Source of the DNA: Streptomyces sp. NRRL S-1022
Lineage (GTDB): Bacteria; Actinomycetota; Actinomycetes; Streptomycetales; Streptomycetaceae
NCBI RefSeq assembly: GCF_000720135.1
Contig: NZ_JOIU01000014.1
Coordinates: 181,044-245,043, forward strand
Direction: 5' to 3'
DNA: 64,000 nucleotides
Below are positions 11,201 through 57,885 of this stretch, piece by piece. A model generated the notes under the pieces. That model did not search any database. It had not been told where the DNA came from and saw nothing but the letters and a program-made list of their open reading frames with translations. The stretch's first letter is position 1, and each line of letters starts with the position of its first letter. A program made the position numbers and the translations under genes.

Positions 11201-13206
11201 ACGAACGCCCTCGCGTTCGGGGCGAGCTTGGCCATGGCGTCGGCGGTCTTGCTGGTGGCCTGGGCGCTGGAGTTCTGGGCTTCGGCCATGCTGCGGGCCG
11301 CGTCGGTTACGGCCTGCTGGGCGTCCTTGATCTGCCGAGCACCGTCGGCAGCCGCCTTGCGCTGCGCCTCGCGTGCGTCCGCCAGGTCACGCTCGGCCTT
11401 GGCGGTCTTGTCCGCGCCGTCCTGCGCGGTGTGTGCCTCGTCGGTGTGGGCGTCCTTGAGTTCCTTGGTCTTGTCCTTGACCTCCTGAGTGGCGTCGCGG
11501 ACCTTGTCCTTGGCGTCCTTCACGGTCTTGGAGCCCTCGACGCCCGCGGCGTTGGCATCGGCCGTCTGCTGCTGCAGCCGCGCGGTCTCAGTCTGCTGCT
11601 CCTCAAGGGCCTGCTTTGCTCGGTCGTACTGCAGCTGGGCCTTGTCGATCTCCTCTTGGGTGGCCTTGGCGCCCTTGGCCTTGACCGCGGCGAGTTCCTT
11701 CTCCGCGTCCTGGAGATCGAGGACCTTCTGCCGCTGGTCGAGCTGGGCATCGGCGAGCCGGGCGTTCAGGTCCTGCAAGTCCTCGGCGGCCTGCTTCCTC
11801 GCCGCCGTGAGGTCGAGCTGCGCCTGCTTCGCGGCGCGCTGGGCGTCCGCCAGGTCCCGCTCAGCTTGCTCGACCTGCTCGGCCGCACGTCGGTTGGCGT
11901 CCGCCACGTCCTGCACGGTCGACTTCAGGTTCCGCTGGGCGTCAGCAACCTGCCGGGCCGCCTGCACCCGGGCCTCGGCGGCCCGCTGCTCAGCGTCCTT
12001 CACGCCCTGTTGAGCCCGGGCCAGGCTGCGCTGTGCGTCCTCGACGCGGCGGGTGGCAGAGGCAGCGGCGTTGCCCGAGGACACGGCCGGCGCGAATGCC
12101 TGCTTGAAGGCGTCACCGACCCCGCTCGTGCCGATCTTGATGGCGGCGAACGCTGCGCCAAGTGACAGCACGGCGGGCACCGCGGTCAGCGCGGCCGGGG
12201 CCATCGCGGCCATCGCGGAACCCAGCGAAACCAGGGAGGGAAGGGCCTCCAGGGCAAGGGCGACGATGCTGGTGAGAGAACCCCTCAGCGCCCCCAGGGC
12301 ACCCGACAGGCCGCCGCTGAACAGGCTGCTGATACGGGACGCCGCCGAGCGGTCCACATCCGCCCGGATGGTGACCGAGCGCGTCCGGGTCAGGGCATCG
12401 AGGCTGGTACGCGCAGCGGTGGTGTTGAGGTTGACGCCGACGGTCATCTGCCTGCGCCGGGTGAGGTTGGCCAGGCTGTCGGCGGCCACGCGGGTGTCGA
12501 CGTCGATGCCGATGTTCACCTTGCGGCGCTGGGTGAGGTTCCTGATCTCGTCGGCGGCGACGCGAGTGTCTGCGCTGGCCCGGATGATGACGAAGCGATC
12601 GGCGGTCAGCCGGTCCAGTTTCTTCTTCGCCGCGTTGTAGGCGGCCTCGTTGATCTTCGGAGTGACGTCGACAGTCTGCTTGCCGGTCAACGCGGCGAGC
12701 TTGGTCCTCGCAGCCGCGTCGTCTACCTGCGCGGCAAGCTGGATGACCTGTGCCCTGACCAGGTTCTCCAGCTGGGCGATGGCCGCCGCGTCATCCACCT
12801 GGACCGTGAGCCTGACAGTGATGGGGCGGGCCAGCTTCGTCAGCGCGGACGCGGCGGCCTTGCCGTCCAGCTTGGCCGTCAGCCCGATAATGCGGGGCTT
12901 GCTGAGGGCGGTCAGGCCGCTCTTCGCCGCATTGCTGTCGAGCCTCGCGGTGAGCTTGACGGCGCGGTCTTTGACCAGGGTGCGCAGCGAGGCTGTGGCG
13001 GCTTTGTCGTCGAGCTTCCCTGCGATCTTGACAGTGCGGCTCTTGGCCAGTGCCGTCAGCTTGGTCCGGGCGTCCCTGTCGTCGAGCTTGGCCAGGATCG
13101 ACGCGCTGACCTTCTTTGTCCTCAGCCGGTCGATCGCGCGGTCGTAGGCGGTCTCGTCGGCTGTGACCTCGACGTAGCCCTCGGCGATTCGGAAGCTACC
13201 CGCCAC
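8257..13206 (-). CDS. Tape measure protein with C-terminal NlpC/P60-like domain
   Basis: A protein of 1,649 residues using GTG 13206, which has GGAGG at good spacing; an alternative TTG at 13221 has none. The N-terminus (about residues 33-295) is an array of roughly ten 24-residue repeats, pattern V-x-L-x-A-x-LD-xx-AA. Residues about 385-650 are a long Ala/Gln/Lys coiled coil, followed by a very hydrophobic Pro/Leu/Ile repeat region. Near the C-terminus, NPSWDCSGF supplies the probable catalytic Cys and GVGHTAGTL the His of an NlpC/P60-like peptidoglycan hydrolase. At about 1.5 angstrom per residue the length implies a tail near 250 nm. It sets tail length and probably cuts cell wall during DNA entry. 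Confidence 0.93.
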   Translation of the reverse strand: MAGSFRIAEGYVEVTADETAYDRAIDRLRTKKVSASILAKLDDRDARTKLTALAKSRTVKIAGKLDDKAATASLRTLVKDRAVKLTARLDSNAAKSGLTALSKPRIIGLTAKLDGKAAASALTKLARPITVRLTVQVDDAAAIAQLENLVRAQVIQLAAQVDDAAARTKLAALTGKQTVDVTPKINEAAYNAAKKKLDRLTADRFVIIRASADTRVAADEIRNLTQRRKVNIGIDVDTRVAADSLANLTRRRQMTVGVNLNTTAARTSLDALTRTRSVTIRADVDRSAASRISSLFSGGLSGALGALRGSLTSIVALALEALPSLVSLGSAMAAMAPAALTAVPAVLSLGAAFAAIKIGTSGVGDAFKQAFAPAVSSGNAAASATRRVEDAQRSLARAQQGVKDAEQRAAEARVQAARQVADAQRNLKSTVQDVADANRRAAEQVEQAERDLADAQRAAKQAQLDLTAARKQAAEDLQDLNARLADAQLDQRQKVLDLQDAEKELAAVKAKGAKATQEEIDKAQLQYDRAKQALEEQQTETARLQQQTADANAAGVEGSKTVKDAKDKVRDATQEVKDKTKELKDAHTDEAHTAQDGADKTAKAERDLADAREAQRKAAADGARQIKDAQQAVTDAARSMAEAQNSSAQATSKTADAMAKLAPNARAFVSAVVAQREAWRGLKLSVQNSLFAGLGQKFSTMSTAILPSLRTGLTGTANILNGMAKNAMDAVTNLGRTGQLKKLFAGLNGALKPLSKVPGQFITGLTQIGTAAAPAFKRITTASGGFFDRISKQIDQSAKNGHLEKIINQALDIAVQFGHLIGDIFGTLGNVMKAAGAAGGDALGSLGSVFKELRRITAMPEVQQALTTIFKALADIGKMLAGVLGAALQAALPLLAQMAPFVSQLANQLGPVLVQLLKGFGKALGPIITALMPVLSNIAALVLDLVQSLTPLLQPLGDLIAAVITAVAPVISAFGDALAPLISALVQGLMPVISALVPIVAAFGKFMGQLAPLFPPLIQALLPLIPPLAQLTVALLTLALQVIQPLLPLIVQLATLFTTVLAGAIQILVPVITTVIGWITTFTKAITDGVKWIVDKFKWLYDVLVGHSIIPDLVKAIIKWFGSLWAKTKEIFTTLKNWVVDTWKGLWTAVRSKWDSFYGGLRSSVTGAWSWVKNSVSGLKTSISNTWSALWNGARDKISGILTTIRGKISAFASGMRTAFSNLRNALGTIWDGIKSKIASPVKWVIKNVYGGMRSMWNTIAGKISSKLTLPPISLNFNRGGVVPGSGNTDTVPAMLTPGERILSKRQVAQLGGHRGIDAMLGQDHPTRTGGNPTQQQERRREQAGGQHFASGGIVGTVTSGAKGLFGGALDWAKDLVIGGLKKAAQKAINSLIRPLVNAIPGGGFGGLLKGLTNRTLDSMLGFLGDEDKKATGGPAVQRALAWAKTQSGLPYQWAGNGNPSWDCSGFMSAIESVIRGEKPHRRWATGAFVGNSGPSGWVRGLKSPFEIGITNAGVGHTAGTLAGINFESSGGRGVHYGRTARGAGDPMFTSRWGFAPATKYDAGGLLQPGATMAVNATRRPERILDAQQTQMFEQLVSSSRTGGSVTIENITVSGTFDFSSRSARRQAAQELVVEMKEALRNYDRERAR
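12330..13110 (-). repeat. About ten tandem 72-bp coding repeats in the tape measure gene
   Basis: The translated region shows successive 24-residue units such as VKIAGKLDDKAATASL, VKLTARLDSNAAKSGL, IGLTAKLDGKAAASAL and VRLTVQVDDAAAIAQL, each ending in a variable Leu/Arg-rich helix. One unit has three extra residues. The nucleotide copies have diverged, so this is an old protein-level repeat. The repeat unit is beta strand then helix. Boundaries are approximate. Confidence 0.8.
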
Positions 13207-13624
13207 CCTCTGTTCCTCCAACGCTCACGAGCCCCGGGAAGCGAGCCCGGAACTGGGTCAGCGAGACCTCACTGACCTCGCTGTCGCCGCGCCCGGCCGG
13301 GGCGGCGGTGCTCGTGCGGGTTGGGGTGGTGTTGCGGGCCGGCTGCTGGCGGTCGCGCTCGGCATCAGCGCGGGCCGCCATCACTCCGGTGTAGGCGGTC
13401 AGTCGGTGTGCCAGCGCGAAGTAGCGGCGGGCGTTGACGGTGGTGGCGTCGGCTTGCTCAAGGTCGATGCCGTAGATGGCCAGGAAGTCGGCGTCCAGGT
13501 CGTCCAGGTGGTCCAGGACCCAGGCGACTTCGGCGATGCGGTCCCAGACGGGCTCCGAGAGGTCCGGCCGGCCGAAGCCGTCGCGCAGGAGCCGCAGCCA
13601 CGCCGGGCCTACCGGGCCGTCGCT
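13196..13624 (-). CDS. Tail assembly chaperone, frameshift extension (gpT-like)
   Basis: This is the -1 frame part of a gpG-gpT type fusion. Reading the minus strand from the slippery GGGAAAA (13630-13624) gives KSDGPVGPAWLRLLRDGFG, an acidic WVLDHLDDLDADF helix, and RYFALAHRLTAYTG, then a basic Thr/Ala/Pro-rich tail ending at TAG 13196-13198, about 142 residues. It has no good start of its own and begins inside the upstream gene, so it should be made as a fusion of about 274 residues. Such fusions coat the tape measure protein before tail tube assembly. The stop lies 8 bases inside the tape measure start, which couples the two genes. Confidence 0.85.
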   Translation of the reverse strand, partial: SDGPVGPAWLRLLRDGFGRPDLSEPVWDRIAEVAWVLDHLDDLDADFLAIYGIDLEQADATTVNARRYFALAHRLTAYTGVMAARADAERDRQQPARNTTPTRTSTAAPAGRGDSEVSEVSLTQFRARFPGLVSVGGTEGGG

Positions 13625-17270: not shown

Positions 17271-18185
17271 TCAGCCGACGAGGATGCTGGCGCCGTTGGG
17301 GTGGCCGTAGGCCCAGCCGCGGCGGGCGCGCATCTTGAGGATTGACTCGTCGGTCAAAGCGCTGAGTCCATCCCTGCCGTCGATGAACACGGACTCCGGG
17401 CCGCTCCTCACGCCGAGGAGCATGAGCTCGGGGTTGACGAACGCCATGATCGGCCGACCGGTGGGGCTGGGCGTGGCGGTCGCGGAGATCTTCGCGCCGA
17501 GGCTCCAGCGGACGGGCACGCTGAAGATGGTGTCGGGGGTACCGGCGCCGTTCTCGTTGAAGATCGGACGGTTCTGGGAGTCGAGGACGCCACGCAGCGA
17601 CTTGCGGAAGGCCGGGTGGGCGATGGCGTACATCGACCCGGGGTCGAAGTAGTCGCCGGATTCCACGGCGCCGATCGCGGTGGAGAACTCGCTGTAGGTC
17701 GGCGCGCCCGAGCTGGAGGCAGTGACGATGTTCGTGCCGCCCGTGTAGCCGAGGGTGCCGTCGGTCGTGTTCAGCAGCTGGTACAGGCTGGTGAACGGGA
17801 CGGTGGTGCCGTTGCTGGCCGCGGACACGGCGAGCGTCGCGTTGTCGATCATCTTGGCGTAGGACTTCGACCAGCCCAGCATCTTGGCCTCGATGACGTT
17901 GGCCACCGAGTCGTCGATGTCCTCTTCCGCCAGCCTGGCCGCCTTGCCGAACTTCACCGCCGACAGCAGGACTTCGTCGTTGAGGCTGGTGTCCTCACCG
18001 TAGGCGCCGCCCTTGGCGACCACGTCGACGCCCATCCCGGCGGTGCGGGGGACGTGCTTGGTGTCGGAGCCCATGGGGATGCGGGAGGCGAGGGCTTCGA
18101 CGGCGGAGATTTGGTTGATGCTCTGGATGACCCGGCTGGTCTCGTACTCTTCCGGGATCCAGGCCTCAAGCGTATTGCGTGCCAC
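17271..18185 (-). CDS. Major capsid protein (HK97 fold)
   Basis: A 304-residue protein from GTG 18185, with GGAGGG 5 bases upstream. Features of HK97-type capsids are an N-terminal helix (LEAWIPEEYETSRVIQSINQ), a basic/Gly segment GMGVDVVAKGGAYGEDTS, the RLAEEDIDDSVANVIEA spine helix region, and a C-terminal part PELMLLGVRSGPESVFIDG, found in many actinophage capsids. It follows the scaffold gene after a 130-base gap that holds a hairpin and a repeated late motif. Confidence 0.9.
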   Translation of the reverse strand: MARNTLEAWIPEEYETSRVIQSINQISAVEALASRIPMGSDTKHVPRTAGMGVDVVAKGGAYGEDTSLNDEVLLSAVKFGKAARLAEEDIDDSVANVIEAKMLGWSKSYAKMIDNATLAVSAASNGTTVPFTSLYQLLNTTDGTLGYTGGTNIVTASSSGAPTYSEFSTAIGAVESGDYFDPGSMYAIAHPAFRKSLRGVLDSQNRPIFNENGAGTPDTIFSVPVRWSLGAKISATATPSPTGRPIMAFVNPELMLLGVRSGPESVFIDGRDGLSALTDESILKMRARRGWAYGHPNGASILVG

Positions 18186-19500: not shown

Positions 19501-20517
19501 TCAGGCGGCGGCCGGGAAGCGGCCGGTTCGGAGTGCGGCGCGGGCGCGGGCCTCGACCGCAGGCAGAAGGTCATCAACGGCCCGCAGCAGCTCCCGCGCG
19601 GCACGCAGCCGGACAGCACGAGACTCCGACGGCCGGCCGACGCCGTAGCCGATGGACCGCTCGGCCTCGCGACGCAGCGCCTCCGGGAACGGTGTCCCGG
19701 ACGTCTTCCACGCGTCACTCCAGGGAACGGCGCGGCAGCGGCAGTGCGCGTGCAGCGGCGGCCCGTCCACCCCGGCCGCCCGGGCGCGGCGCTGGCGCGG
19801 GTCCCAGGACAGGCCGCCCGGGAACGGCTCGCCCGGCGGGGCGGTCCGGCCGGTGTAGGCCAGGCAGCGCACGCACGCATCGGCCTCCGACACCCACACC
19901 CGCAGCGGCGCGGTCGCGCGGACGACGACGTCCAGCCCTTGGTGGACCGCGGTATTGATGACCCACGCGATGTGCGCACGCACGGCCGGCAGGACGGCCC
20001 GGGCGGCGCCGAGCCCGGCCAGCATGTGCGACCACCGCGACACCCGGTCCGGGTGCAGCAGGAACAGGGCGCGGTCGCGGCGTTCGGCCACCATGTCCCG
20101 GACGCGGCGCGCCTCAGCCAGCAGGACGCGACTCACCGACGGCACGCGCGGCTCCCTGCGCCCCCGGCCGGACGCGGCACGCACGAACTCGGAGCCCTGC
20201 CGCACCCCCATGACCAGCGCGGGCCCCAGCCCATCGGCCAGCACCGCGGGCGCCCGACGCGCGAGGTCATCCAGCAGCCGGACGGCGGCGGCCCGGGTCG
20301 CTGCAACGATGCGGCGCAGTACGTCCCCGGGCGCGGCCGGCTGGTTCGGGCCGCCGTACGCGCGGGTCCACGCGGTGAGCGTGCGGCGAACGAGCTCCTC
20401 GAACGCGCGGTCCATCCCGAGCAGGGCCCGCCCGGCGAGCCGGTTCTCCAGGTCGACGACCTCGCCCGTGTGGTCGTCCTGCACCAGGCGGGTGAGGTGC
20501 TCGCTGGAGTACGGCAT
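19501..20517 (-). CDS. MuF-like minor capsid protein
   Basis: A 338-residue protein starting at ATG 20517, overlapping the portal stop. It is strongly helical and Arg/Ala-rich. In its second half, CVRCLAYTGRTAPPGEPFPG is followed by PPLHAHCRCRAVPW, the Cys-Cys ... His-Cys-Cys arrangement of Mu F-like head morphogenesis proteins. These proteins are packaged in small numbers near the portal and often injected. The order portal then MuF is conserved. Confidence 0.82.
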   Translation of the reverse strand: MPYSSEHLTRLVQDDHTGEVVDLENRLAGRALLGMDRAFEELVRRTLTAWTRAYGGPNQPAAPGDVLRRIVAATRAAAVRLLDDLARRAPAVLADGLGPALVMGVRQGSEFVRAASGRGRREPRVPSVSRVLLAEARRVRDMVAERRDRALFLLHPDRVSRWSHMLAGLGAARAVLPAVRAHIAWVINTAVHQGLDVVVRATAPLRVWVSEADACVRCLAYTGRTAPPGEPFPGGLSWDPRQRRARAAGVDGPPLHAHCRCRAVPWSDAWKTSGTPFPEALRREAERSIGYGVGRPSESRAVRLRAARELLRAVDDLLPAVEARARAALRTGRFPAAA

Positions 20518-22043
20518 CAGCTCTCCTCCTGTGCCTGCGCGAGCGCTTCAAGGTCGTCGATGGCGCCGGTCATGAGCGCGGTGACCTGCTCGGAGGTGAT
20601 GACGCCGAGCGCGGCCGCGGAGCCGAGCTTCTGCGCGGAGTCGGCGAGCGATGCGAGGACGTCGACGCGGCGCTGCAGCTCGGCGTCGTCCGTACCCGAG
20701 AGCCACGCATCAACCTGCTCAGCGCGGTAGCCGGCCTCCATCAGCGCCTGGCGCCGAGGTACGCCGGCCTCGATCTTCGCCTTGACGGTCTGCCAGCCCT
20801 CGGCCGTCGACACGGACCGGGCCGGTACCCAGTCGACGTTGACGACCGGGTCCTCGATGCCGAGGCGGCGCAACGCGAAAACGAACGCCTCATGCAGGGC
20901 GGCGCCGTAGCTGGTCTGCCGGTTCTCCACCTTCGAGATGAACGGTCCGTCCTCCTCGCGGTAGGACTCGCCTGAGCGCTGGCTCGACTGGGGGTCGAAC
21001 AGGCGCAGCGGTGTCTCGGTGATCTGGGCCATGGCCCGCACGTTGAACATGATCGGGTCGAGGAACACCTGCGGGTTCGCGGCGTCGAACTGACCGACGG
21101 CCTTGTAGCCGCGCAGCAGCCACATCTCGCCCGGCCCGGCCTTCAAGCTGCTGTCCTCCCCCGAGTCGCTCGGCCCGAGGCCCTTCTCGTTGAGGGGCCA
21201 GTCGCCGTCATCCCAGTCACCGGGCTCAAGGTCGCTGGTGTCGGTAGTGGAGGTCTCGGTCAAGGCGTAGCGCTGCGGTGCGCCCTGGTAGTCGACCGTC
21301 CCCATGTGCGTGGCCTGCAATTTGGTGATCGCGTTCTGCGGGCCGTACGCGCCATAGTGCTCGGGCACGCCGTAGGGGCGATCGTTGCGGAAGTGGAAGA
21401 CCGGCTGTTCGTTCCAGTCGTGCTCGATCGACCAGGACTCGGGGTCCTCTGGGTCGGCCGGCCAGGGGTGCCAGTCGCCGGCCTGGTCACCGCGCGAGTT
21501 CTCCCCGGTGGTCCAGCGTTCGGTGCGGTCGTCGTACAGCAGCTCGACACGCTCGTACCGGCCTTCGCACCACTTCTTGATGGTGAAATTCTTCTTGCGC
21601 GGGTTGTCCTCGCTGTAGAAGACGCGCACCGTCTGCGGAGAGTTGTAGAACATCTCGACCCGGACGACGTTGCCTTGGGCGTCCTCGACGGGCAGCACCA
21701 TGAGGTAGGCGTCGCCGTACTCGCCGGCCCGGCGGAACAGATCCGGCAACTCGATGTTGAGCTGGTTGTCCTGCCAGATCTTCGAGATGAGGGTGTTGGT
21801 GTCCTCGTCGGGGCTGGTGATCGAGGCGACCTTCAGCCGGTTGGTGATGGCGTTCACCGGCGTTTTGGCGAAGTTGAGGTCGAAGTCGATGCGGTGAGCG
21901 GCGAGGGCACGGCGCAGGCGGACGCTGGTGAAAACCTCGGGGACCTTGCCGTCGTAGTACAGGGCGGCCTGGTCGTAGCCGGGACGGGAGCCTTCCAGCT
22001 CTTCGATTCCGAGCATGAGGTCGGCGAGCGACTCGTCATCCAA
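20517..22043 (-). CDS. Portal protein (SPP1 gp6-like)
   Basis: A 508-residue protein. The start is TTG 22043 with GGAGGACG 5 bases upstream. Conserved portal features include a LALADLMLGIE-like helical start, a DEDTNTLISKIWQDNQL segment, FNNDRPYGVPEHYG-like regions near the middle, and a long helical C-terminus with LSGTDDAELQRRVDVLASL. It forms the dodecameric DNA entry vertex. It sits between terminase and MuF genes. Confidence 0.9.
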   Translation of the reverse strand: MDDESLADLMLGIEELEGSRPGYDQAALYYDGKVPEVFTSVRLRRALAAHRIDFDLNFAKTPVNAITNRLKVASITSPDEDTNTLISKIWQDNQLNIELPDLFRRAGEYGDAYLMVLPVEDAQGNVVRVEMFYNSPQTVRVFYSEDNPRKKNFTIKKWCEGRYERVELLYDDRTERWTTGENSRGDQAGDWHPWPADPEDPESWSIEHDWNEQPVFHFRNDRPYGVPEHYGAYGPQNAITKLQATHMGTVDYQGAPQRYALTETSTTDTSDLEPGDWDDGDWPLNEKGLGPSDSGEDSSLKAGPGEMWLLRGYKAVGQFDAANPQVFLDPIMFNVRAMAQITETPLRLFDPQSSQRSGESYREEDGPFISKVENRQTSYGAALHEAFVFALRRLGIEDPVVNVDWVPARSVSTAEGWQTVKAKIEAGVPRRQALMEAGYRAEQVDAWLSGTDDAELQRRVDVLASLADSAQKLGSAAALGVITSEQVTALMTGAIDDLEALAQAQEES

Positions 22044-22142: not shown

Positions 22143-23750
22143 CTACGCGTACGCCGCCGTACGAGCAGACGGCGCCGCCCGCTTCATTGGCGGCATGAAC
22201 CGGCGCACCGCCGACCCCACCGCGTCGACCATGTCGTCGTTCGGGCCCTTCGGGAACGTGCACATCTGCTGCTCCAGCTCCGGCAGTCTGCGCGCGTGCA
22301 GCACCCGGCCCCGCTGATACAGGCCGAGCAGCCCCTCCGCCCGCGCGAACTTCGGCTCGTTCTGGTGGACCGTCTTCACCTTCACCGGCATGTCGTGCAG
22401 GATCGCCTGCCAGGCGTCGCCGCCCTGGTTGACCTCGATCAGGATCAGCCCGATCCGCGGGAACTCATCCAGCAGCGCGAGGACACGGTCGCGGAGCTCC
22501 GGGCCCGGCCGCACCTTCAGCGCCATCGCCGCGTGCACGGTGCATCGTTGGCGCTGGGCCGACCAGGACACGACGGCCAGTCCGGTGAAGTCGGACGCCC
22601 GCTTCGCAGTGGTGGCCGGGTCGATGCTCAGCATCATGTGGGTGATCGGGTCTGCGCCGGTAATCGGGTCAACCCGGTCGGCGATGTTCAGGGTGCCGTC
22701 GAGGCGGTCCAGCACGGCCGGCGGCTCCGGGTAGCGGAAGTCGTCCGGCGTCCACAACGCCCCGTCCGCGGCCAAGGGGTCGTTCGCCATGTTCTTCGCA
22801 TAGCTGCGGGTGTGCCGGATCTCCAGCAGGTAGCCGATCGGCCACTTCGCCGGCCACATCGACCGCTCCGTGCCGTCCGGGCGCTGCACGATCGGCAGGC
22901 TGTGGTGCGCGCGGATGCCCTCGTCCCGGATCCAGTCCTCGACGTGGACGCCCTTCGCTGCCTTCACCAGCTGGTGGATGATGCTGCCCGGCATGGTGAC
23001 AGTCCCGCAGATCGCGACGCGGGCGTAGATGTTCAGCGGCAGGATCGCGTCCAGCAGGGTGGTGAGCCGCTTCGCCGCGAGCTGCGCGGAGTACGACGCC
23101 TCGTCCGGCTCGATGTCGTCGCACAGCAGCAGGTCGGGGCGTTTCTCCTCGACCTTCATGCCGAGCGCGCTGGAGTCGATGCCGTGCGCGGCGAAGATGA
23201 ACCCGGACTTGGCGATGTACATGCTCTGGGTGTCGGCGACGTTCTGCCCGGACGGGCGCTTGGCCGCGGTGCAAAGGTCGGGGAAGTCGCGGCGGAGCAG
23301 GGCGTTGCCGTCCAGCTCGCGTTTGAACGTGGACAGGTGCCGCTCAGCCTGCGTGGCCGCTGAGGCGAACGCGGCGGCGAAGCGGACGTGGCCGTGCGCG
23401 GCGGCCCACATCGGCAGGATGAGGAACCACCAGGTCGTTTTGCCCGTGTTGCGGGGGGCGATCCAGGCGTCGCGTTCCTCGGCTGGGCCGGCGGGCGGCC
23501 GTATCCAGCGGCGGGCGGCGCGGCACCAGGCGAGGTGGGCATCCCCGAAGCTGATCCGGCCTTCCTCGTCTTTGAGGTGGTGGCGGAGGTAGACGAGGGC
23601 GAACAGCAGTGGGTCGAGGCGGGTGAGGACGCGCCGGCCTTCGGGGTCGGCGAGGAGCCGAGGGTCGAACTGGGCGAGGTAGGCGTCCAGGTCGAAGGTC
23701 TCGGCGTCCAGGCCGCGGAGGTAGCCGGGTGTGCGGGTTGCGGTCGTCAC
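22143..23750 (-). CDS. Terminase large subunit
   Basis: A 535-residue protein starting at GTG 23750. The ATPase domain has a Walker A-like APRNTGKTTW at about residues 98-107 and Walker B LLLCDDIE at about 207-214. The nuclease domain has MLSIDPATTAKRASDF near residue 375 and FPKGPNDDMVDAVG near 510, which supply the metal-binding acidic residues. It cuts and pumps phage DNA into the portal. It lies 4 bases downstream of the small subunit gene. Confidence 0.95.
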   Translation of the reverse strand: MTTATRTPGYLRGLDAETFDLDAYLAQFDPRLLADPEGRRVLTRLDPLLFALVYLRHHLKDEEGRISFGDAHLAWCRAARRWIRPPAGPAEERDAWIAPRNTGKTTWWFLILPMWAAAHGHVRFAAAFASAATQAERHLSTFKRELDGNALLRRDFPDLCTAAKRPSGQNVADTQSMYIAKSGFIFAAHGIDSSALGMKVEEKRPDLLLCDDIEPDEASYSAQLAAKRLTTLLDAILPLNIYARVAICGTVTMPGSIIHQLVKAAKGVHVEDWIRDEGIRAHHSLPIVQRPDGTERSMWPAKWPIGYLLEIRHTRSYAKNMANDPLAADGALWTPDDFRYPEPPAVLDRLDGTLNIADRVDPITGADPITHMMLSIDPATTAKRASDFTGLAVVSWSAQRQRCTVHAAMALKVRPGPELRDRVLALLDEFPRIGLILIEVNQGGDAWQAILHDMPVKVKTVHQNEPKFARAEGLLGLYQRGRVLHARRLPELEQQMCTFPKGPNDDMVDAVGSAVRRFMPPMKRAAPSARTAAYA

Positions 23751-28561: not shown

Positions 28562-28593
28562 GACCCCGCCACGACGGGGGGCGTGGCGGGGTC
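28562..28593 (-). terminator. Terminator of the transfer-like operon
   Basis: GACCCCGCCACG (28,562-28,573) pairs perfectly with CGTGGCGGGGTC (28,582-28,593). It lies 18 bases after the stop of the minus gene ending at 28,611, closing the operon that runs from about 34,380. Confidence 0.8.
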
Positions 28594-28610: not shown

Positions 28611-29063
28611 TCAGCCGTGGTGCGTGATGTCAGTACGGCCGAACCACTTCTGCGTCACGTGCGTCTCGTGGCGGACGTTCACCACGCTCCGCCCGCGCAC
28701 ACTGCCGGCAGCGAGGAGCAGCGCGGCCAGCATTGCCAGCCCGCTCGTCCCCATAAGGGCCACCCCGGCGGCCAGCTCGTGCAGCCCGAAGCCGACCCCC
28801 GCGCCCGCTGCGCCGACACCGACGCCGCCAGCGAGCATGCGCTGTGCGAGCGGATCGAAAAGCGGCTGCGGGGTCAAGTCCCGCGGTGCCGGCATGGGCA
28901 TCGGCTGAACGTACTCCCTCAGCACCGGCACCATCACGTTCGGGTCGGCCCCGGACGGCACCCAGGCAACCGCGGGCCGTTCGGCGCGCAGCTCGACGCC
29001 AGCGGGGTGGACGGGACGCTGCTCGACGGCTGGGGCGTAGCGCTGGTAGGGCTCGGACAGCAT
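28611..29063 (-). CDS. Small membrane protein next to the FtsK-like gene
   Basis: A 150-residue protein whose ATG overlaps the translocase stop (TGATG). The first 80 residues are Pro-rich and probably cytoplasmic. Two hydrophobic segments follow (MLAGGVGVGAAGAGVGFGLHE, then ALMGTSGLAMLAALLLAAG), then a tail with HETHVTQKWFGRTD. Coupled translation suggests it works with the translocase at the membrane. Confidence 0.68.
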   Translation of the reverse strand: MLSEPYQRYAPAVEQRPVHPAGVELRAERPAVAWVPSGADPNVMVPVLREYVQPMPMPAPRDLTPQPLFDPLAQRMLAGGVGVGAAGAGVGFGLHELAAGVALMGTSGLAMLAALLLAAGSVRGRSVVNVRHETHVTQKWFGRTDITHHG

Positions 29064-31159
29064 CACGACTCCTGAGAGCGGTCGGGGCGGACGGCGTAAC
29101 GGCCGAAGCGGGGCTTGTGGACGCGCGAGTCCGCGGCGAGCCACCGGCCGATCGTGGCCGCGTGCGGGACTTCCTGGGCGGGATGCTGGCGGGCGAAGCA
29201 GTCACGGATCGCCTCAGGACCGATGCCGTCTGGGCCAGCCTTCTCGACGATGCGGTAGACCATCTCGCGGCGCGGGTCACCGTCTTCCCCGCCCGGCGCG
29301 GGCTGCTGGGGATCGACAGTGGGCGGCTTCCAAGTCAGGCCGCCGCCGCTGAGGATCTCCTGGAACCGAGCGTCAAGGTCGCCGTCGCGGCTGCTGGTCT
29401 CGCTCATCGCCTCGTGCAGGCGGCGGCGGGCGGCCTCGGCCTGGTCGATCGTGGCCTGCGCGTCGCCGCCGGCCGGGGTGATGCCCCAGTCCGCGGTGAT
29501 GCCTCGGCCGCGCGGCGTGGGAGGCTCCGGGGTGGACTCGACGACCGGCGTGGGCTCGGGGGCGGGCCCGCCGAAGAGGTGGTCGGTTCCGATCCATCGC
29601 TTCTCGTACGCTTCGCCGGCCGCGCGGCGGGACAGCTCGTCGAGCTCGGGGTGTCGCTCGGCGGTCGCGCGGACGATGTCGAGGATCTGCGACGGGCGCA
29701 TCCGGTACACCTTCATCGGGTGGACCTGGCCGTCGCCGTCCCGGACGAGTGCGCACCCCGGGTAGGGGGCGTCTTCCGCGCTGGCGTTGTGGTTGTAGCC
29801 GAAGAAGTAGTTCAGCTCGGAGTCGTCGGCGACCTTCATCCCGGCCTTGAACGTGGACTGCTTCAGGATCTGCGGGTCGGACAGGACGTCCTGGGTGGCG
29901 CGTAGACCGCTGGTGGTCTCGTTGACCGCGGCGGCGCGGGCGATCTCCAGGGTCTGGATCAAGTTGTCGGCGATCGCGCGCAGCGTGTCGTTGCGCCGGG
30001 ACCGGGTGGAGAAGATCTCCGCGCCCTCGTCGTTGAAGACACGGATCTCCGGGACCTCGGCGTCCACCGGGAGTTTGTCGTCGTTGGCGGCGATCTCCCG
30101 ATCCTGATAGCCGACCTTCCTCGCCTTCGCGACCCGCACTAGCGCGGTCGCCATGCCGAGCGCCTGCTCCGGGGTATCGGCCACCCAGTCGATCGGCGGC
30201 CGGCCCGGCTTGCCCGCGGCGGCCCACGCGCGCATCCACTTCAGGGCGAGGCCCCCGCCGTTGAGGTCGATGACCCAGGTGATCGAGTCGACCATCCTGC
30301 ACTGGTTGGCGATCATCACGTTGAGCAGGTTCGTCTTACCCGACCCGCGCTGCCCGACGACCAGCATGGACGCCTGCCGGTTGACCGGCCCCTCCGGCAT
30401 GCCGTCGCGGAGGATGCCTAGCGGGGCGGGCGCGTTGACGGTGAGCGGCGAGTAGTCCTCCGGGTAGTACACGTCCTCGACGAGCCTGTTGACGGTCGAG
30501 ACGTGGATGAGGACTGCGCCGCGGTGCGCGCCGGGCCCGACGTCGACGCCGCACCCTTCGGGGAGGCGGGCGTCCGCGGCGAGCTGCTCCTTGTAGACGG
30601 CGACGTCCTTCCAGCGGGTGCCGCCGGCGCCGCACTCGCCGTCGAGGCTGAACCCGCCGCCGCCGTCCCACACCTCGACGCCGACGATCTGCACGACCGC
30701 CCCGGCGCAGACGCGGACGATGCGGTCTTCCCACTCGTCCGCGATGGCTTTGCGCTTGCCGTCCAGGGTGGCGCGCCGGGCGGCGGCTTCCTTCTCCGCG
30801 CGTTGTTCCTCGGCTTTCTCCTCGACGTGGTGTGCACCGGCCATCGCTGCGCCGAGGCCGAGGATGCCGGCGAGGAGGCTGCCCATGCCCCACTGCGACC
30901 ACGGCCCGGAGACGATGGCCCACGAGCACCAGCCGCCGGCACCCAGCCAGCCCGCGGCGCGCAGCGCGAGCGTGGCCGTGGTGACGTTGTGGCGGCGGCC
31001 GGCGATGTGGCTGCCGGCCAGGCCGGCGCCCGCGGTGAGGGCGGCCCATTCCCACGGCATGCCGAGGGTGTGGCCGGCGTAGCCGACGGCGAGCGCGGCG
31101 GCACCGGTGTTGATGGGACCGGTGATGGCGCCGTGCTTGGCGTCCCAGTCGAGGTTCAC
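29063..31159 (-). CDS. FtsK/SpoIIIE/TraB-like DNA translocase
   Basis: A 698-residue protein. GTG 31159 was chosen because GGAG lies upstream and it does not overlap the previous gene; the open frame allows 15 more residues. Two or more N-terminal membrane segments (about residues 17-115) precede an ATPase core with Walker A VVGQRGSGKTNLLN at about 267-280, WVIDLNGGG after it, and EIRVFNDEGAEIF as Walker B. The C-terminal 70 residues (YRIVEKAGPDGIGPEAIRDC ... RWLAADSRVHKPRFGRY) look like a winged helix, as in FtsK gamma domains and Streptomyces TraB. This type of protein moves double-stranded DNA across or along membranes. Confidence 0.85.
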   Translation of the reverse strand: MNLDWDAKHGAITGPINTGAAALAVGYAGHTLGMPWEWAALTAGAGLAGSHIAGRRHNVTTATLALRAAGWLGAGGWCSWAIVSGPWSQWGMGSLLAGILGLGAAMAGAHHVEEKAEEQRAEKEAAARRATLDGKRKAIADEWEDRIVRVCAGAVVQIVGVEVWDGGGGFSLDGECGAGGTRWKDVAVYKEQLAADARLPEGCGVDVGPGAHRGAVLIHVSTVNRLVEDVYYPEDYSPLTVNAPAPLGILRDGMPEGPVNRQASMLVVGQRGSGKTNLLNVMIANQCRMVDSITWVIDLNGGGLALKWMRAWAAAGKPGRPPIDWVADTPEQALGMATALVRVAKARKVGYQDREIAANDDKLPVDAEVPEIRVFNDEGAEIFSTRSRRNDTLRAIADNLIQTLEIARAAAVNETTSGLRATQDVLSDPQILKQSTFKAGMKVADDSELNYFFGYNHNASAEDAPYPGCALVRDGDGQVHPMKVYRMRPSQILDIVRATAERHPELDELSRRAAGEAYEKRWIGTDHLFGGPAPEPTPVVESTPEPPTPRGRGITADWGITPAGGDAQATIDQAEAARRRLHEAMSETSSRDGDLDARFQEILSGGGLTWKPPTVDPQQPAPGGEDGDPRREMVYRIVEKAGPDGIGPEAIRDCFARQHPAQEVPHAATIGRWLAADSRVHKPRFGRYAVRPDRSQES

Positions 31160-31179
31160 AGCGTGCTCCAGTCGGCGAG

Positions 31180-32652
31180 TCAGAGGTTGGCGGAGACGTC
31201 CCACATGCGCTCGCCGGTGCGGGGGTTCTCCAGGCGGGCAATGTCGACGTCGTGGAGCTGGCGGAAGGCGGGCGTGAGTTCGGTGGCGAGTTCGGCCGCC
31301 TTGAGTTGCAGACCGTGGATCTGCCGCATGATCTCCACGATGTTCGGGTGGAGCGGCCAGCTCGCGTCCGCGTTCTCGACGGTCGTGGCCAGCGCCTCGG
31401 CGTGGATACGCAGGGCCTCCTCCAGGCCGGCGAAGTCCTGGCCGACCTGCAGCATCCCTTGCGGCTGGTAGGCGGCGGCGGCGCGGGCCATCTCGGTGGC
31501 GGCGGCGACGAAGTGGTGCCCTCCGGACATGGCGGTTCCTCCTGTGAACGTGACGGGGGTGGTAGGGCGCCGCACAGTGGCGGCGATGGACGGCTCGGGT
31601 GCGGTGTCCTGCTCGGCGCGGTTCTTACGGCGTCGCTTCCACACCGCCTTGAGTCGGTCGAGTGCGGCGGCGCGCCCGCGGCCCAGGAGGGTCCAGGCGC
31701 TGGCACCGAGCGCGCAGATGCCGTCCCACAGTGCGCCGCTGGCGCGGCGGGCCTGCTTCGCGGCGGCCTTGCTTGCGCGGGTGACGAGGGGGCGGCCGGC
31801 GCGGTAGGCGGCGCGGGCCGCCCGGTTGGCGGCGGCCTTCAGTGCGTGGCCGGTGCTGGAGGTGCGGGTCTTGGGTGTGGTGGTCTTGCCGGTGTTCTTC
31901 CCGGCGAGGTCTTTCGCGGCCTGCTTCAGCGCCTTCTTCGCGGTCTTCTGAGCCGCCTTCTGCGCGGCGGCTTCCGCCTTCTTCTGCTGCCGCTTCGTCG
32001 CGCCCGGGGTGTGGCTGCCGGAGCGGTGGCGGCCAGGTCCGCTGTGGTGGCTCGGACCGCTCTTGCGGAAGAGTCCGCCACCGGCGCGCTGACTCCCGCC
32101 ACCCGCCACGCCACGGGAGCCGCCGCGCGAGCCGAGCCCGGACGAGCCGCCACCGCTACGCGACAGCGGACCGCTCGCACCGCTACCGGAGCGCGTAGCG
32201 CCACCGCTACGACCGCCACGCCAGCCGCTACCCGACCCGCTACCGCCGCGTCCGCCGCCCGTCCCGGACCCGCTACGCAGGCCGCTACCAGCGCCGCTAC
32301 GCAGGCTGGAGGCAGTAGCGCGCCCGGCTTTCACCGTGGCGCGGCGGCGGAGCGTCGCGGCCGTAGCGCCCGCCACGATCACCGCTCCGGTAGCGGCCGC
32401 GGCGACCGGCCCGCCGACGTTGTACGCGGCGGTCGCGGCCAGGCTGGTGGCGTTGCCGGCGCCGGCGAGGACGGGGGCCATGGGCAGGCCGCGGGTGCGG
32501 CGCCGGCGGGTCTGCTGCTCGGGGAGCTCGGGGACGGGCCATTCGGAGGGCCAGGCCAGGACGGGGGACGGCCGGGCGGTGCCCTGTGTGGGGGGATCGG
32601 GTGGGGTGTCGCTGGTGGGCGTGGTCTCGGGGGCGGTCTTGGTGCGGGCCAC
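31180..32652 (-). CDS. Spd-like membrane protein with Ser/Gly/Arg repeat region
   Basis: A 490-residue protein from GTG 32652 with GGAG upstream. One hydrophobic segment (VGGPVAAAATGAVIVAGATAA) near residue 90 is followed by about 100 residues of Arg/Ser/Gly repeats, a long Lys/Ala helix, and a C-terminal helical domain (AAATEMARAAAAYQPQGMLQ ... LQLKAAELATELTPAF). Proteins of this make-up accompany the TraB translocase in Streptomyces conjugative elements (spread genes). It is immediately upstream of the FtsK-like gene. The Spd assignment is inference from context. Confidence 0.62.
   Translation of the reverse strand: MARTKTAPETTPTSDTPPDPPTQGTARPSPVLAWPSEWPVPELPEQQTRRRRTRGLPMAPVLAGAGNATSLAATAAYNVGGPVAAAATGAVIVAGATAATLRRRATVKAGRATASSLRSGAGSGLRSGSGTGGGRGGSGSGSGWRGGRSGGATRSGSGASGPLSRSGGGSSGLGSRGGSRGVAGGGSQRAGGGLFRKSGPSHHSGPGRHRSGSHTPGATKRQQKKAEAAAQKAAQKTAKKALKQAAKDLAGKNTGKTTTPKTRTSSTGHALKAAANRAARAAYRAGRPLVTRASKAAAKQARRASGALWDGICALGASAWTLLGRGRAAALDRLKAVWKRRRKNRAEQDTAPEPSIAATVRRPTTPVTFTGGTAMSGGHHFVAAATEMARAAAAYQPQGMLQVGQDFAGLEEALRIHAEALATTVENADASWPLHPNIVEIMRQIHGLQLKAAELATELTPAFRQLHDVDIARLENPRTGERMWDVSANL
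32153..32300 (-). repeat. Eight copies of GTAGCGG heptamer inside the Spd-like gene
   Basis: On the plus strand CCGCTAC begins at 32,153, 32,180, 32,204, 32,225, 32,237, 32,270, 32,282 and 32,294; read on the coding strand these are GTAGCGG in one direction. They encode Arg/Gly-Ser-Gly, always with AGC and with a T-ending GGT or CGT codon before it, although T-ending codons are rare here. The uniform choice suggests selection on the DNA sequence too. Confidence 0.6.
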
Positions 32653-32724
32653 GACGGTGCTCCGTTCACTGCGACTGTGACTCTGACTGCAGTCGGACTC
32701 TGATCGGGTGGGGGTTTCCGCTGC

Positions 32725-32862
32725 TCAGGGGGCGGACGGGGGGCGGGTTTGACTGCGGCTGCGGTCACGGTCACGGTCACGGCGCGCCTTGTCGTCGGCG
32801 TGAGCCATCACAAGGAAGACGATCGTGATCAAGGTCAAGGCGATGGCGGCGGCGAGAAGCAT
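32725..32862 (-). CDS. Small single-span membrane protein, 45 residues
   Basis: ATG 32862 is preceded by GAAGGAA. The product has one membrane helix (LLAAAIALTLITIVFLVMAH) and a polar tail made of alternating Arg-Asp and Arg-Ser (KARRDRDRDRSRSQ). It lies between the two Spd-like genes in the same direction. It resembles the small membrane proteins found in Streptomyces spread operons. Confidence 0.65.
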   Translation of the reverse strand: MLLAAAIALTLITIVFLVMAHADDKARRDRDRDRSRSQTRPPSAP

Positions 32863-32877
32863 GAGGTTCCTTCGGGG

Positions 32878-33873
32878 TCAGGCGGCGCGGGGGCCGGGCA
32901 GGGCGGGGTTCTCGGCTTCGACCTGGCGGCGGATCTTCCCGGCCTGCGCCCGGCTGTTCGCCAGCCCGGCCTCGCCTAGGGCGTCGACGATCGCGCCCTC
33001 GGTGGGCCGGTGGCCGAGGTTCAGCCACAGGCCGCGGACGACGTACTGCGGGGTGCCAGGCTCGTAAGCCGGCACCGTCTGATCGGTAGTGGCATCGGGC
33101 ATGGTGGCGGGCTCGGCGGGTGGCGTAGCGGTCTTCTCTGGCGTGGTGGCACGCGACGGCTTCGGGGTGGCGGTGGCGGGCGTGGCCGGTCGTGGCGTGG
33201 CGGCGGGCGTAGTGGGCGCCGCTACAGGCGGTAGAGCGGGGGCGCTACTGAACATGGCGGCGAGCGCCGTGTTGGCGCCGTCAACGATGCGGGTGTTCTG
33301 CACGTCGGTGAGCGCGCTACCGAGGGTGGCGTCGCTATCGCCGAGGCGCCCCATGAGCCGCCACGCCGCGAGCGCCGACGCTTTTCGCACCCACTTCCAG
33401 GGGTGGCGTTCGGCGCGTGCCCGGTGGTAGGCGATCCTGCGCAGCACGGCGGCATTGCGCCGCTGCGCCTCGATGTCGACGCCGGTGCGGTGCACGACGA
33501 TCCGGCGGGCGAGGAAGCTGATGCCCTCCGCCGAGGCGGTCATCGCGAGCGGGGTGAGGGCGAACACGATGGCCTCGGTTGGGGTCGGGGCGATCGCCAG
33601 GCCCATGACGGACGCGGCGGCCGGCAGGAGCCACAGTGCAGCGCGGATCGCGAGGGGCGCGGCCTGACCGAGCATGGTGACGCCGATCATGACGAGAGCG
33701 GCGACGAGGGTTGCGCCTTCGCCAGCGGCGACGACGCCGAGGGCGGTCTCCTTGCGGTGGAGGACGGAGCCGGCGTTGGCGTAGGTGCCGATGGCGCCGC
33801 CGATACCGACGGCGATCATCGGGATGGTGGCGATGGCGAGGACGGTGATCTGTCCCTTGGTCAGCTTCTTCAC
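32878..33873 (-). CDS. Polytopic Spd-like membrane protein
   Basis: A 331-residue protein. GTG 33873 was chosen because GGAG lies 8 bases upstream; the longer frame has no ribosome site. Four or so membrane segments occupy residues 1-130 (VLAIATIPMIAVGIGGAIG, ALVMIGVTMLGQAAPLAI, ALWLLPAAASVMGLAIA). A basic linker, a Pro/Thr/Ala-rich low-complexity stretch and a C-terminal helical domain with GEAGLANSRAQAGKIRRQVE follow. Overall architecture matches conjugation spread proteins of actinomycete elements and membrane partners of FtsK-like translocases. Confidence 0.65.
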   Translation of the reverse strand: MKKLTKGQITVLAIATIPMIAVGIGGAIGTYANAGSVLHRKETALGVVAAGEGATLVAALVMIGVTMLGQAAPLAIRAALWLLPAAASVMGLAIAPTPTEAIVFALTPLAMTASAEGISFLARRIVVHRTGVDIEAQRRNAAVLRRIAYHRARAERHPWKWVRKASALAAWRLMGRLGDSDATLGSALTDVQNTRIVDGANTALAAMFSSAPALPPVAAPTTPAATPRPATPATATPKPSRATTPEKTATPPAEPATMPDATTDQTVPAYEPGTPQYVVRGLWLNLGHRPTEGAIVDALGEAGLANSRAQAGKIRRQVEAENPALPGPRAA

Positions 33874-33895
33874 GGTGACGGCTCCGTGGAACGGG

Positions 33896-34105
33896 TCAGC
33901 GGTAGCGCCAGGCGAGGGCGGCCAGACCGGCGGCAATCAGGGTGGGGGCGGTGAGTTGTGCGTAGAGGCCCGCGATGGTGCAGAGGGTGAAGCCGTAGCG
34001 GGCGACGGGCGAGCACAGGGTGTTGACGAGGGGTGAGTGGGCGCGGATGCGGTGGCGGCGGCGTCTGCATTGGGGGCAGGGCGCGCGGCGCGCGGTACGG
34101 GTCAT
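33896..34105 (-). CDS. Small membrane protein with CxxC
   Basis: A 69-residue protein with GAGGAAG before ATG 34105. It starts with a basic CPQCRRRRHR motif and has a hydrophobic C-terminal part (FTLCTIAGLYAQLTAPTLIA, then GLAALAWRYR). It belongs to the same leftward unit as the Spd-like genes. Confidence 0.65.
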   Translation of the reverse strand: MTRTARRAPCPQCRRRRHRIRAHSPLVNTLCSPVARYGFTLCTIAGLYAQLTAPTLIAAGLAALAWRYR

Positions 34106-34130
34106 GGCGGGCTTCCTCGCGGGAGTGGGT

Positions 34131-34172
34131 GCCGGGCTGGCGGGACGAGGGGTTGGGTACCGCCAGCCCGGC
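34131..34172. terminator. Strong hairpin in transfer-like operon
   Basis: GCCGGGCTGGCGG (34,131-34,143) pairs perfectly with CCGCCAGCCCGGC (34,160-34,172), 13 base pairs with a 16-base loop, between the tiny gene ending at 34,190 and the gene starting at 34,105. It could reduce read-through into the membrane genes. Confidence 0.65.
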
Positions 34173-34189
34173 GGTCGGTGGGGTGGGGG

Positions 34190-34261
34190 TCAGCCTTGCG
34201 GGTGGGGGCGGGGCGGGCGGATGGGGAGCGGTTCTTTGGCTCGCTCGTGCTCGGCGCTCAT
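34190..34261 (-). CDS. Possible tiny protein, 23 residues
   Basis: ATG 34261 overlaps the stop of the upstream 40-residue gene (TGATG). The product is MSAEHERAKEPLPIRPPRP plus five residues. The overlap pattern matches the coupled genes of this phage, but the short length makes it uncertain. Confidence 0.4.
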   Translation of the reverse strand: MSAEHERAKEPLPIRPPRPHPQG

Positions 34262-34380
34262 CGGCCGGCAGGGCGGGGCGTGAGCTTCCGCTCCAGGCGG
34301 GCCAGGGCCTGCTGCGCGGCGGGCGGCAGCGGCTCGGTGCGCGGGGTGGGCGGTTGGGGTTGGGGCTGGGTACGCTGCAT
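34258..34380 (-). CDS. Small Pro/Gln-rich protein, 40 residues
   Basis: ATG 34380 has AGGAG 8 bases upstream. The product is Pro/Gln-rich at first (RTQPQPQPPTPRTEPLPP), then a helix AAQQALARLERKLTPR. A longer frame upstream runs through a hairpin and was rejected. Role unknown. Confidence 0.5.
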   Translation of the reverse strand: MQRTQPQPQPPTPRTEPLPPAAQQALARLERKLTPRPAGR

Positions 34381-34489: not shown

Positions 34490-34509
34490 TGTACGGGATA
34501 CCCCGTACA
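34490..34509. promoter_or_regulatory. Palindromic operator TGTACGGG-ATAC-CCCGTACA
   Basis: A perfect 8-base inverted repeat with a 4-base spacer lies 36 bases before the helix-turn-helix gene at 34,545, in the gap between divergent units. The outer TGTAC...GTACA matches the ends of the RHH operators at 27 kb but the centre differs. Confidence 0.68.
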
Positions 34510-34544: not shown

Positions 34545-34832
34545 ATGGAAGAGGAGGTGCAGCGCGTGCTGGACGCTCTCGCAGGTCTCTCAGAGATCGA
34601 CGATCCGAAGACGCGCGCGCTCGCTGTGGCGAGGGTGCTGAAGGAGTGGCCCGAGCACAGTAAGGCGCTACGGGAGGTACGGCGGCAGGCCGTGCTGGAG
34701 CTGCTGGCGCCCGACGATGCCTCCGTCCGGAAGGTCGCGAAGGAGCTAGGCGTGTCGCCGACGACGGTCCAGGACATCGCGGCGGGCTACTCGCGGTCCG
34801 GGAAGGATCGCGCGAAGAAGACCGAGGAGTAG
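34545..34832 (+). CDS. Helix-turn-helix regulatory protein
   Basis: A 95-residue protein with GAAGGGA upstream of ATG 34545. A helical N-terminal half (VQRVLDALAGLSEIDDPKTR) precedes a clear helix-turn-helix near residues 60-82 (ASVRKVAKELGVSPTTVQDI). It resembles sigma region 4-like or small plasmid regulators. The palindrome upstream suggests autoregulation and control of the leftward transfer-like operon. Confidence 0.75.
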   Translation: MEEEVQRVLDALAGLSEIDDPKTRALAVARVLKEWPEHSKALREVRRQAVLELLAPDDASVRKVAKELGVSPTTVQDIAAGYSRSGKDRAKKTEE

Positions 34833-55723: not shown

Positions 55724-56275
55724 TTGGAGTTCACGGCCACCAGCAAGGCCGCCGCAGCGATGGCCGCGGTGACCCTCATCTCGGGGTTCGCGGCCATCCT
55801 CCACAGCACATCCACCGACGACGTGGCAGGCGCCATCGGCGGAGCCTGCCTCGTCATGGTGGCCCTGACCATTATCATCTGTGTCCTGGTCCGGCACTGG
55901 ATCTGCAACACGAACACCGAGCGCGCGATTCTCGCCGCCGCCCAGCGCGAAGCCCAGGCCGAACGCAGCCGCTACTTCGCCGCCCAGGCCGCCCTGGAGA
56001 ACGAGATGGGCCGCCTCAACCGGGACATGGCCGCAGAGCGGGCCCGCATAGCCCGCTCTCTTGCTGCCGAGCAAGCCAAAGTTCGAGCCAAATTCGAAGA
56101 AGAGCGAGCACAGCTGGCGGCCGAAGCCTTCCGCACAGGCGTCGAAATGGAACGGGCCGGCATGCTCAAGCCCGGGGCTGAGAAGACACAGGGTGTCCTC
56201 ATACGCTTCCCGCGCCACCCCGAGCACGCCGCGGAGCAGGAACGCTCCCGCGAGCACGGGAATGTCGGTCCCTGA
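55724..56275 (+). CDS. Membrane protein with long coiled coil
   Basis: A 183-residue protein; TTG 55724 with GGGGGTG upstream is the only suitable start. Two membrane segments (AAMAAVTLISGFAAILHS and AGAIGGACLVMVALTIIICVL) are followed by a coiled coil of about 90 residues (REAQAERSRYFAAQAALENE, MAAERARIARSLAAEQAKVR) and a polar tail. It is co-transcribed with the repressor and so probably made in lysogens, a typical place for a superinfection exclusion gene. It overlaps the 3' end of the integrase gene by 77 bases on the other strand. Confidence 0.7.
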   Translation: MEFTATSKAAAAMAAVTLISGFAAILHSTSTDDVAGAIGGACLVMVALTIIICVLVRHWICNTNTERAILAAAQREAQAERSRYFAAQAALENEMGRLNRDMAAERARIARSLAAEQAKVRAKFEEERAQLAAEAFRTGVEMERAGMLKPGAEKTQGVLIRFPRHPEHAAEQERSREHGNVGP

Positions 56276-57844: not shown

Positions 57845-57885
57845 CATCCTAGCCCTAAGGGGTATGCCTAAAGGACTTTGTGGGG
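57845..57885. other. Right attachment junction (attachment core region)
   Basis: The integrase start codon and the host gene are separated by about 40 bases. The host reading frame can be followed left to 57,872, and then meets TAA at 57,869-57,871. CCCTAAGGGG (57,853-57,862) and AAAGGACTTT (57,870-57,879) are imperfect inverted elements of the sort found in serine integrase sites. The exact crossover bases cannot be fixed without the left junction. Confidence 0.72.

Follow-up and report, generated by a model that had tools for sequence, protein, structure and literature searches.

The 64,000-nucleotide stretch analysed here (hereafter, the window) belongs to contig 14 (NZ_JOIU01000014.1) of the 8.9 Mb genome of Streptomyces sp. 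NRRL S-1022, and overlaps an integrated prophage in which a leftward operon encodes a TraB/FtsK-like membrane ATPase. From its start, the operon comprises a 69-aa protein, orf352, a 45-aa protein, a 490-aa protein, the 698-aa ATPase and a 151-aa protein, with an HTH_23 (helix-turn-helix) regulator placed divergently to it. The original prediction, made from the nucleotide sequence, had recognised in this block the DNA transfer module of Streptomyces conjugative elements. As an observation it was partly confirmed: the ATPase, the regulator, its palindrome and the phage genes stood, while the number of membrane or Spd-like genes and the terminator held up only in part, and the element was seen to start outside the window.

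The ATPase gene (29063-31159, minus strand, GTG start at 31159) is a reading frame without internal stop that carries the Walker A motif GQRGSGKT. Its AlphaFold model (mean predicted local distance difference test score, pLDDT, of 80) displays four N-terminal helices (residues 10-130) followed by an FtsK-type motor, although a single segment of this membrane region rises above the hydropathy cut-off. Where a winged helix had been predicted at the C-terminus, the model has winged-helix-like elements at residues 630-690 (helices at 630-676 and a strand at 688-690, pLDDT ~90). Structural matches were best to TcpA and FtsK (the listed fold matches cover residues 145-520 only). At the sequence level the ATPase is TraB-like, its FtsK/SpoIIIE-type motor being homologous to that of a proven TraB: it aligned co-linearly with pIJ101 TraB over 260 aa of the motor (25-26% identity, 56.6 bits, E 1.7e-12), whereas none of four FtsK-like host proteins exceeded 29.6 bits.

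The search against TraB and FtsK families was nonetheless divided, as the match to pIJ101 TraB was accompanied by a score below the cut-off (17.7 versus 24 bits) for Pfam FtsK_SpoIIIE (PF01580), the model used in the census of actinomycete integrative and conjugative elements (AICEs). Among four homologues scanned with the same model, those of G117, pZL12 and Galactica were without match and that of pSQ10 passed the cut-off (25.8 bits); precomputed PF01580 annotations were found in none of 240 homologues among the matches listed, some of which are named 'FtsK domain-containing'. The broader ATPase family can thus be missed by PF01580-based counts. An extra C-terminal domain was noticed in the family members P0069, P0089, P0090, P0099, P0102, L019, L145, L159 and L161 (Pfam FtsK gamma, as listed, for P0089, P0090, P0099 and P0102; by eye or by name for the others).

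Upstream of the ATPase, the 490-aa protein (orf490, 31180-32652, minus strand) consists of a Gly/Ser/Ala-rich N-terminal part and a conserved C-terminal helical domain of 116 aa (31180-31530, minus strand, with a possible internal start), which is a neighbour of the ATPase in phages as well as in plasmids and AICE-type loci and is referred to below as the partner domain. It was modelled as a helical bundle (pLDDT 87) without informative fold match. Matches were recorded in 136 loci (many overlapping or duplicate), reaching down to pZL12 (weakly, with 56 aligned residues and E 1e-4), phiM2 and P1312; as sole query, the domain retrieved 16 plasmid records, 15 of which also carry the ATPase, and five phage records, all of Hiyaa type. 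The ratio of nonsynonymous to synonymous substitution rates (dN/dS) amounted to 0.20, 0.20, 0.22, 0.25 and 0.39 for the ATPase (against five relatives) and 0.15-0.25 for the partner, with 0.13 for the large terminase subunit (TerL) against the single relative in which it was aligned. The ATPase and its partner are therefore under purifying selection and constitute a maintained core pair; chance or artefact was rejected, as the operon is open, conserved in relatives and under such selection in these two genes.

The prophage and its phage genes

Mapped against three insert-free relatives, in all of which the alignment ran continuously across both ends, the prophage extends from about -13731 to 57891 in window coordinates (71.6 kb), so that the element begins 13.7 kb to the left of the window. 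The attachment cores (attL, ~ -13731 to -13718; attR, 57878-57891, plus strand), deduced by comparison with the empty site (TTCTGGGGGCAGAA), are imperfect and 14 bp long (TTCTGGGGGCACAA and TTGTGGGGCCAGAA). A serine integrase (56199-57839, minus strand) lies at the right end. On the same strand we identified the terminase large subunit (22143-23750; phrog_38, E 4e-70), the portal (20517-22043; phrog_104, E 3e-57), the major capsid protein (17271-18185; phrog_10, E 1.5e-16) and the tape measure protein (8257-13221; phrog_4197, E 4e-123), besides matches to head morphogenesis, scaffold and tail proteins. The predicted full set of head and tail genes is thereby present, and at the gene level (integrase, attachment sites, terminase, portal, capsid and tail genes) the element qualifies as a temperate tailed phage. 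An AICE, defined by an integrase, an AICE-type Rep and Tra, it is not: it has head and tail genes together with DnaB/RecE-type genes, and no AICE-type Rep (RepSA, RepAM or Prim-Pol) was found among the prophage proteins scanned. The element is a prophage having a Tra module in common with AICEs.

The satellite phage MiniFlayer and Streptomyces phage Mulchroom encode terminases that share 37-44% identity with that of the prophage. On the tail side, two open reading frames (ORFs) were judged by eye, rather than by profile search, to be glycosyltransferase-like (298-1065) and nucleotide-sugar epimerase-like (~ -4065 to -2992); epimerase-like ORFs were likewise seen downstream of the ATPase in the relatives L014, L017, L020 and L142.

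Distribution of the ATPase and its partner

Of 295 genomes sampled from the genus, 51 have ATPase homologues (E<=1e-60), at 62 listed places, and members of this translocase family fall mostly below the Pfam FtsK cut-off. Four places correspond to the window prophage and phage-type relatives, and the context was examined for 57 of the other 58. A tblastn tally of 51 of these chromosomal, AICE-type loci (with phage structural queries from the window prophage and NBC_01177 only) recovered the partner in all 51, phage structural homologues in none, replication-gene homologues in 46 (20 of these assignments rest solely on a G218 protein without Pfam match) and a tyrosine integrase in 24; the five loci lacking a replication match are L092, L099 and L115-L117. 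The six further loci, inspected with both flanks, also have the partner and show no phage structural match. By Pfam, the G117 element encodes Prim-Pol, DUF3631, HTH_17 and Phage_integrase, which are AICE marks as used in the part of PMC3218068 consulted.

Both genes of the pair were found on plasmids such as pFQ12, pADI95-16c, pDSM40587, pAGRA3207_2 and an unnamed one of 27.9 kb, and the ATPase is also carried by pSQ10 and pTH1. Plasmid pDSM40587 (L010) encodes, next to the family ATPase, a second FtsK/SpoIIIE-annotated protein (10734-12842 and 19575-21755 for the two). The suggested search for the block in other Streptomyces phages found the ATPase in several unrelated phage backbones: Hiyaavirus, P1312, the plasmid-phage pZL12, NBC_01177, NBC_01483, an 86-kb element of S. 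albidoflavus and (by record name) phiM2; the isolated phages that bear it are Galactica, Keanu, Hiyaa, Spocter and P1312.

Close relatives (at least 47% ATPase identity) were counted as 30 distinct loci, own prophage included; the near-copies L016, L058, L149, L150, L159 and L160 were not recounted, L142 and the G248 place seem to be identical and L020 is a possible near-copy of L014. Within the stretch examined, 19 of the 30 have a terminase, portal or tape-measure match (several at just 25-30% identity), two (L144 and L145) have only PHROG families of unknown function, and nine are without phage match (L014, L017, L020, L143, L154, L155, L157, L158 and L163), all of these except L143 being viral contigs by collection. 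Considering that several terminase types accompany the close ATPases, and that six other genomes with the prophage's terminase type either lack the ATPase (five) or have a 31% partial match (one), the cassette is accessory and, by implication, exchanged between backbones.

In a quick tree of 84 rows (the 57 chromosomal rows labelled AICE as one group, the five loci lacking a replication match included), the window ATPase fell together with NBC_01177, G149 and the close relatives into a clade that has Hiyaavirus at its base (SH-aLRT, the Shimodaira-Hasegawa-like approximate likelihood ratio test, 86); the sister groups are plasmids, AICEs and other phages. P1312, pZL12 and phiM2 were placed among plasmids on long branches, and L115-L117 also grouped with a plasmid. 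The phage label changes seven times, at least five of these changes being forced by starred branches, but the deep joins are unsure and, because of the long branches, may be false.

Repeat arrays, control region and remaining genes

Inside the coding sequence of orf490 lies an array of eight direct repeats of GTAGCGG (32153-32300, minus strand; CCGCTAC on the plus strand), a candidate clt-like or origin-like site. This is the only 7-mer with at least six copies in 260 bp across the 71.6-kb prophage, and its cluster count was reached in 0, 1, 2 and 5 of 500 synonymous-codon nulls (four null runs); the cluster count of orf352 was reached in 225-291 of 500 and carries no signal. Many close relatives have an array of their own at the same place, some of them with a reverse-complement array in the upstream gene as well. 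When motifs were chosen blindly, the top motif of the ATPase-adjoining gene exceeded the synonymous-codon null (p<0.05) in 12 of 25 loci, in some of which it differs from the array motif. In the upstream gene, the reverse complement of this top motif did so in 7 of 25; the window prophage belongs to neither set (p 0.09 and 0.38). The test of within- against between-locus motifs gave 0 of 10000 permutations, for related loci that are not independent of each other.

Arrays within 200 bp after the ATPase stop were met in 40 of 57 AICE-type loci, compared with 190 of 5336 background windows and none of the 23 phage-clade loci. Among the 57 AICE-type loci, 30 (e.g., L062) have CGACAAG arrays immediately following the ATPase, which are clt candidates for that AICE group. 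CCGCTAC arrays, apparently non-coding, were also seen in the DUF3631-type AICEs L102, L147 and L084, 5-7 kb downstream of the ATPase.

The control region fits the predicted regulator with its own palindrome. The HTH_23 protein (34545-34832, plus strand, by Pfam) lies divergent to the block, and an operator-like palindrome, TGTACGGGATACCCCGTACA (34490-34509), overlaps the single promoter-like site detected between 28000 and 36000, which is on the block strand and points into the block. Among eight relatives, the same stretch holds palindromes of different sequence, which have 10- or 11-bp arms in L142, L156 and L164 and are shorter in L141, L166 and L154, with none of at least 6 bp in L014 and L015; such differences fit a regulator with changing operator specificity.

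The remaining genes (all on the minus strand) only partly answer to the description of at least five membrane or Spd-like genes. Hydropathy agrees, besides the ATPase, for orf352 (a multi-span membrane protein of 331 aa from a GTG at 33873, 32878-33873; phrog_16651, E 1e-61), for the single-span 45-aa protein (orf45, 32725-32862), for the 151-aa protein with two membrane segments (s151, 28611-29066, overlapping the ATPase stop; DUF6251 below cut-off) and, weakly, for orf490. The 69-aa protein at the operon start (orf69, 33896-34105), called from its ORF and coding pattern, stayed below the hydropathy threshold, with one Pfam match below cut-off and no PHROG or NCBIfam match. No Pfam match was obtained for orf352 itself, and the NBC_01177 gene at its place is a DUF2637 protein (E 1.5e-37); s151 homologues adjoin the ATPase in close relatives. 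At the 3' end of the block, where a terminator had been proposed, folding gave a terminator-like 12-bp hairpin (~28562-28593, minus strand), which has no T tract and was not picked up by the terminator scan.

A putative transfer module and its known counterparts

A TraB-like ATPase, together with an ATPase-partner pair common to plasmids and AICE-type elements, marks the block as a conjugation-type module. We regard it as probable, with moderate confidence, that the block is a TraB-type module for the transfer or spread of double-stranded DNA by a temperate Streptomyces phage. Its sequence relationships characterise it as a TraB-type cassette exchanged between phages, plasmids and AICEs, and its position in a complete prophage suggests that a virus could also move through the mycelium without particles. 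In the mechanism that we envisage, the ATPase would be held in the membrane by its N-terminal helices and oligomerise into an FtsK-like ring, its winged-helix-like C-terminal domain would read element-specific repeated DNA, and the motor would drive the circular DNA of the excised phage across a cross-wall or a contact between hyphae. The 116-aa helical domain, together with the multi-span membrane protein, may help to build the membrane complex, and the HTH protein would repress the operon at the palindrome.

Several results weigh against this interpretation. At E 1e-3 the partner domain was undetected in the pSQ10, pTH1, NBC_01483 and S. albidoflavus loci, and no Spd profile was found among the block proteins scanned in Pfam, NCBIfam or PHROGs (spd genes are described as highly diverse in the part of PMC4170104 consulted). 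The eight phage records that bear the ATPase are all absent from the 15 Streptomyces phage records with an orf352 homologue, and both orf352 (dN/dS 0.22-0.60) and s151 (0.24-0.58) are under weaker constraint. The coexistence of the family ATPase and a second FtsK-annotated protein on pDSM40587 means that the two may do different jobs. The repeat array was not upheld as a proven clt, for its motif equals the repeat of DUF3631-type AICEs, where it tracks the type of replication gene, and an origin role is thus as possible. We found no reports of transfer for the prophage or for its near kin, and neither an AICE nor a phage-free plasmid was seen in the nearest clade, which comprises the window ATPase, its close relatives, NBC_01177, G149 and Hiyaavirus. 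An ATPase clade restricted to phages, which the original prediction had named as contrary evidence, is upheld in part only: the sister groups include plasmids and AICEs and the phage label changes repeatedly, with the caution that long branches impose.

Other functions were weighed on the same evidence. That the module acts within one mycelium only, passing phage DNA through cross-walls during infection or after induction and not between colonies, is a narrower form of the transfer reading with which it overlaps, and we hold it to be unlikely, if the least so of the three alternatives; it would suit the five isolated phages that encode the ATPase, as well as the membrane partners, whose likeness to a spreading complex is confined to composition, yet AICEs and pZL12-like elements have to get to new hosts, and the present evidence does not separate the two uses. 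Somewhat less likely still is a role of the ATPase in segregating or placing phage DNA within the host (e.g., along the hypha) with no cell-to-cell transfer. An FtsK fold is compatible with such a role, the consulted part of PMC4569894 has the authors of P1312 suggesting DNA segregation for the homologue ORF63, and that of PMC10117723 places ftsK among the actinophage genes that may serve to manipulate the development of the host; the ATPase nevertheless matches pIJ101 TraB better than the four host FtsK-like proteins, and small plasmids and AICE-type elements consist in large part of the pair. The presence of the pair on such elements also speaks against a third reading, which we consider improbable, namely that an FtsK/HerA-type ATPase has been re-used in a moron serving defence, superinfection exclusion or the takeover of the host: the PHROG category of the ATPase family ('moron, auxiliary metabolic gene and host takeover') favours it, as does the sole PADLOC match (mad8, E 3e-5), but this match is limited to residues 265-408 around the P-loop, and TcpA and FtsK rank first among the structural matches.

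If the transfer module works, a temperate phage can colonise the mycelium of its natural host without lysis, and one exchange network of double-stranded DNA transfer modules joins phages and AICEs; whether phages conjugate then becomes a simple mating test. More tentatively, and with less than even expectation, a whole Streptomyces prophage lineage may be dual-mode, travelling as virions and as naked double-stranded DNA via hyphal contacts, by means of a TraB-type machine that it has in common with AICEs and plasmids through repeated module exchange, and with lineage-specific operon arrays as loading sites. As the Pfam FtsK model on which AICE counts rely misses most members, conjugative phages and AICEs would then both be under-counted.

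Among known systems, TraB of the rolling-circle plasmids pIJ101 and pSVH1 shares the FtsK-like motor and, to judge from the model, the membrane and winged-helix-like features (described for pSVH1 in the part of PMC3583192 consulted), but the alignment is restricted to the motor, and the window ATPase has no Spd-profile partners among the block proteins scanned and remains below the Pfam FtsK cut-off. Streptomyces AICE-type elements have an ATPase 33-42% identical to that of the window with the partner adjoining; they differ in their Prim-Pol/DUF3631/DUF3987-type replication genes, tyrosine integrases and lack of phage structural matches, as well as in the array that 40 of 57 loci have just after the ATPase, which the phage-clade loci do not share. 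The FtsK-like translocase operon of Hiyaavirus (Hiyaa, Galactica, Keanu and Spocter), for which we saw no reported function, resembles the window block in its ATPase (35-36% identical) and upstream partner domain, but sits in a different phage genome of 81-83 kb. NBC_01177, a 51.7-kb element with terminase, portal, capsid and tape-measure genes and the same block, is deposited as a circular plasmid, and its ATPase and partner are only 49% and 58% identical; the circular element of NBC_01483 (87.9 kb), related to pZL12, unites phage genes with a homologous ATPase, its partner domain being undetected.

The conjugation-type reading stands as regards the TraB-like ATPase and the shared pair, but the hybrid of phage and conjugative element is predated by pZL12, a known plasmid-phage for which a required tra gene and two neighbours are reported in a later paper (PMC3583192, seen in part). 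Like the window prophage, pZL12 (phage ZL12) combines a phage gene set with a homologous ATPase (just 26% identical), a weakly matching C-terminal partner domain and a membrane gene upstream; unlike it, pZL12 has been classed as a plasmid-phage and its upstream regulator is of GntR type, whereas the window prophage owes its integration to a serine integrase and has an HTH_23 regulator. The window case is a chromosomally integrated variant of this hybrid, with different control genes.

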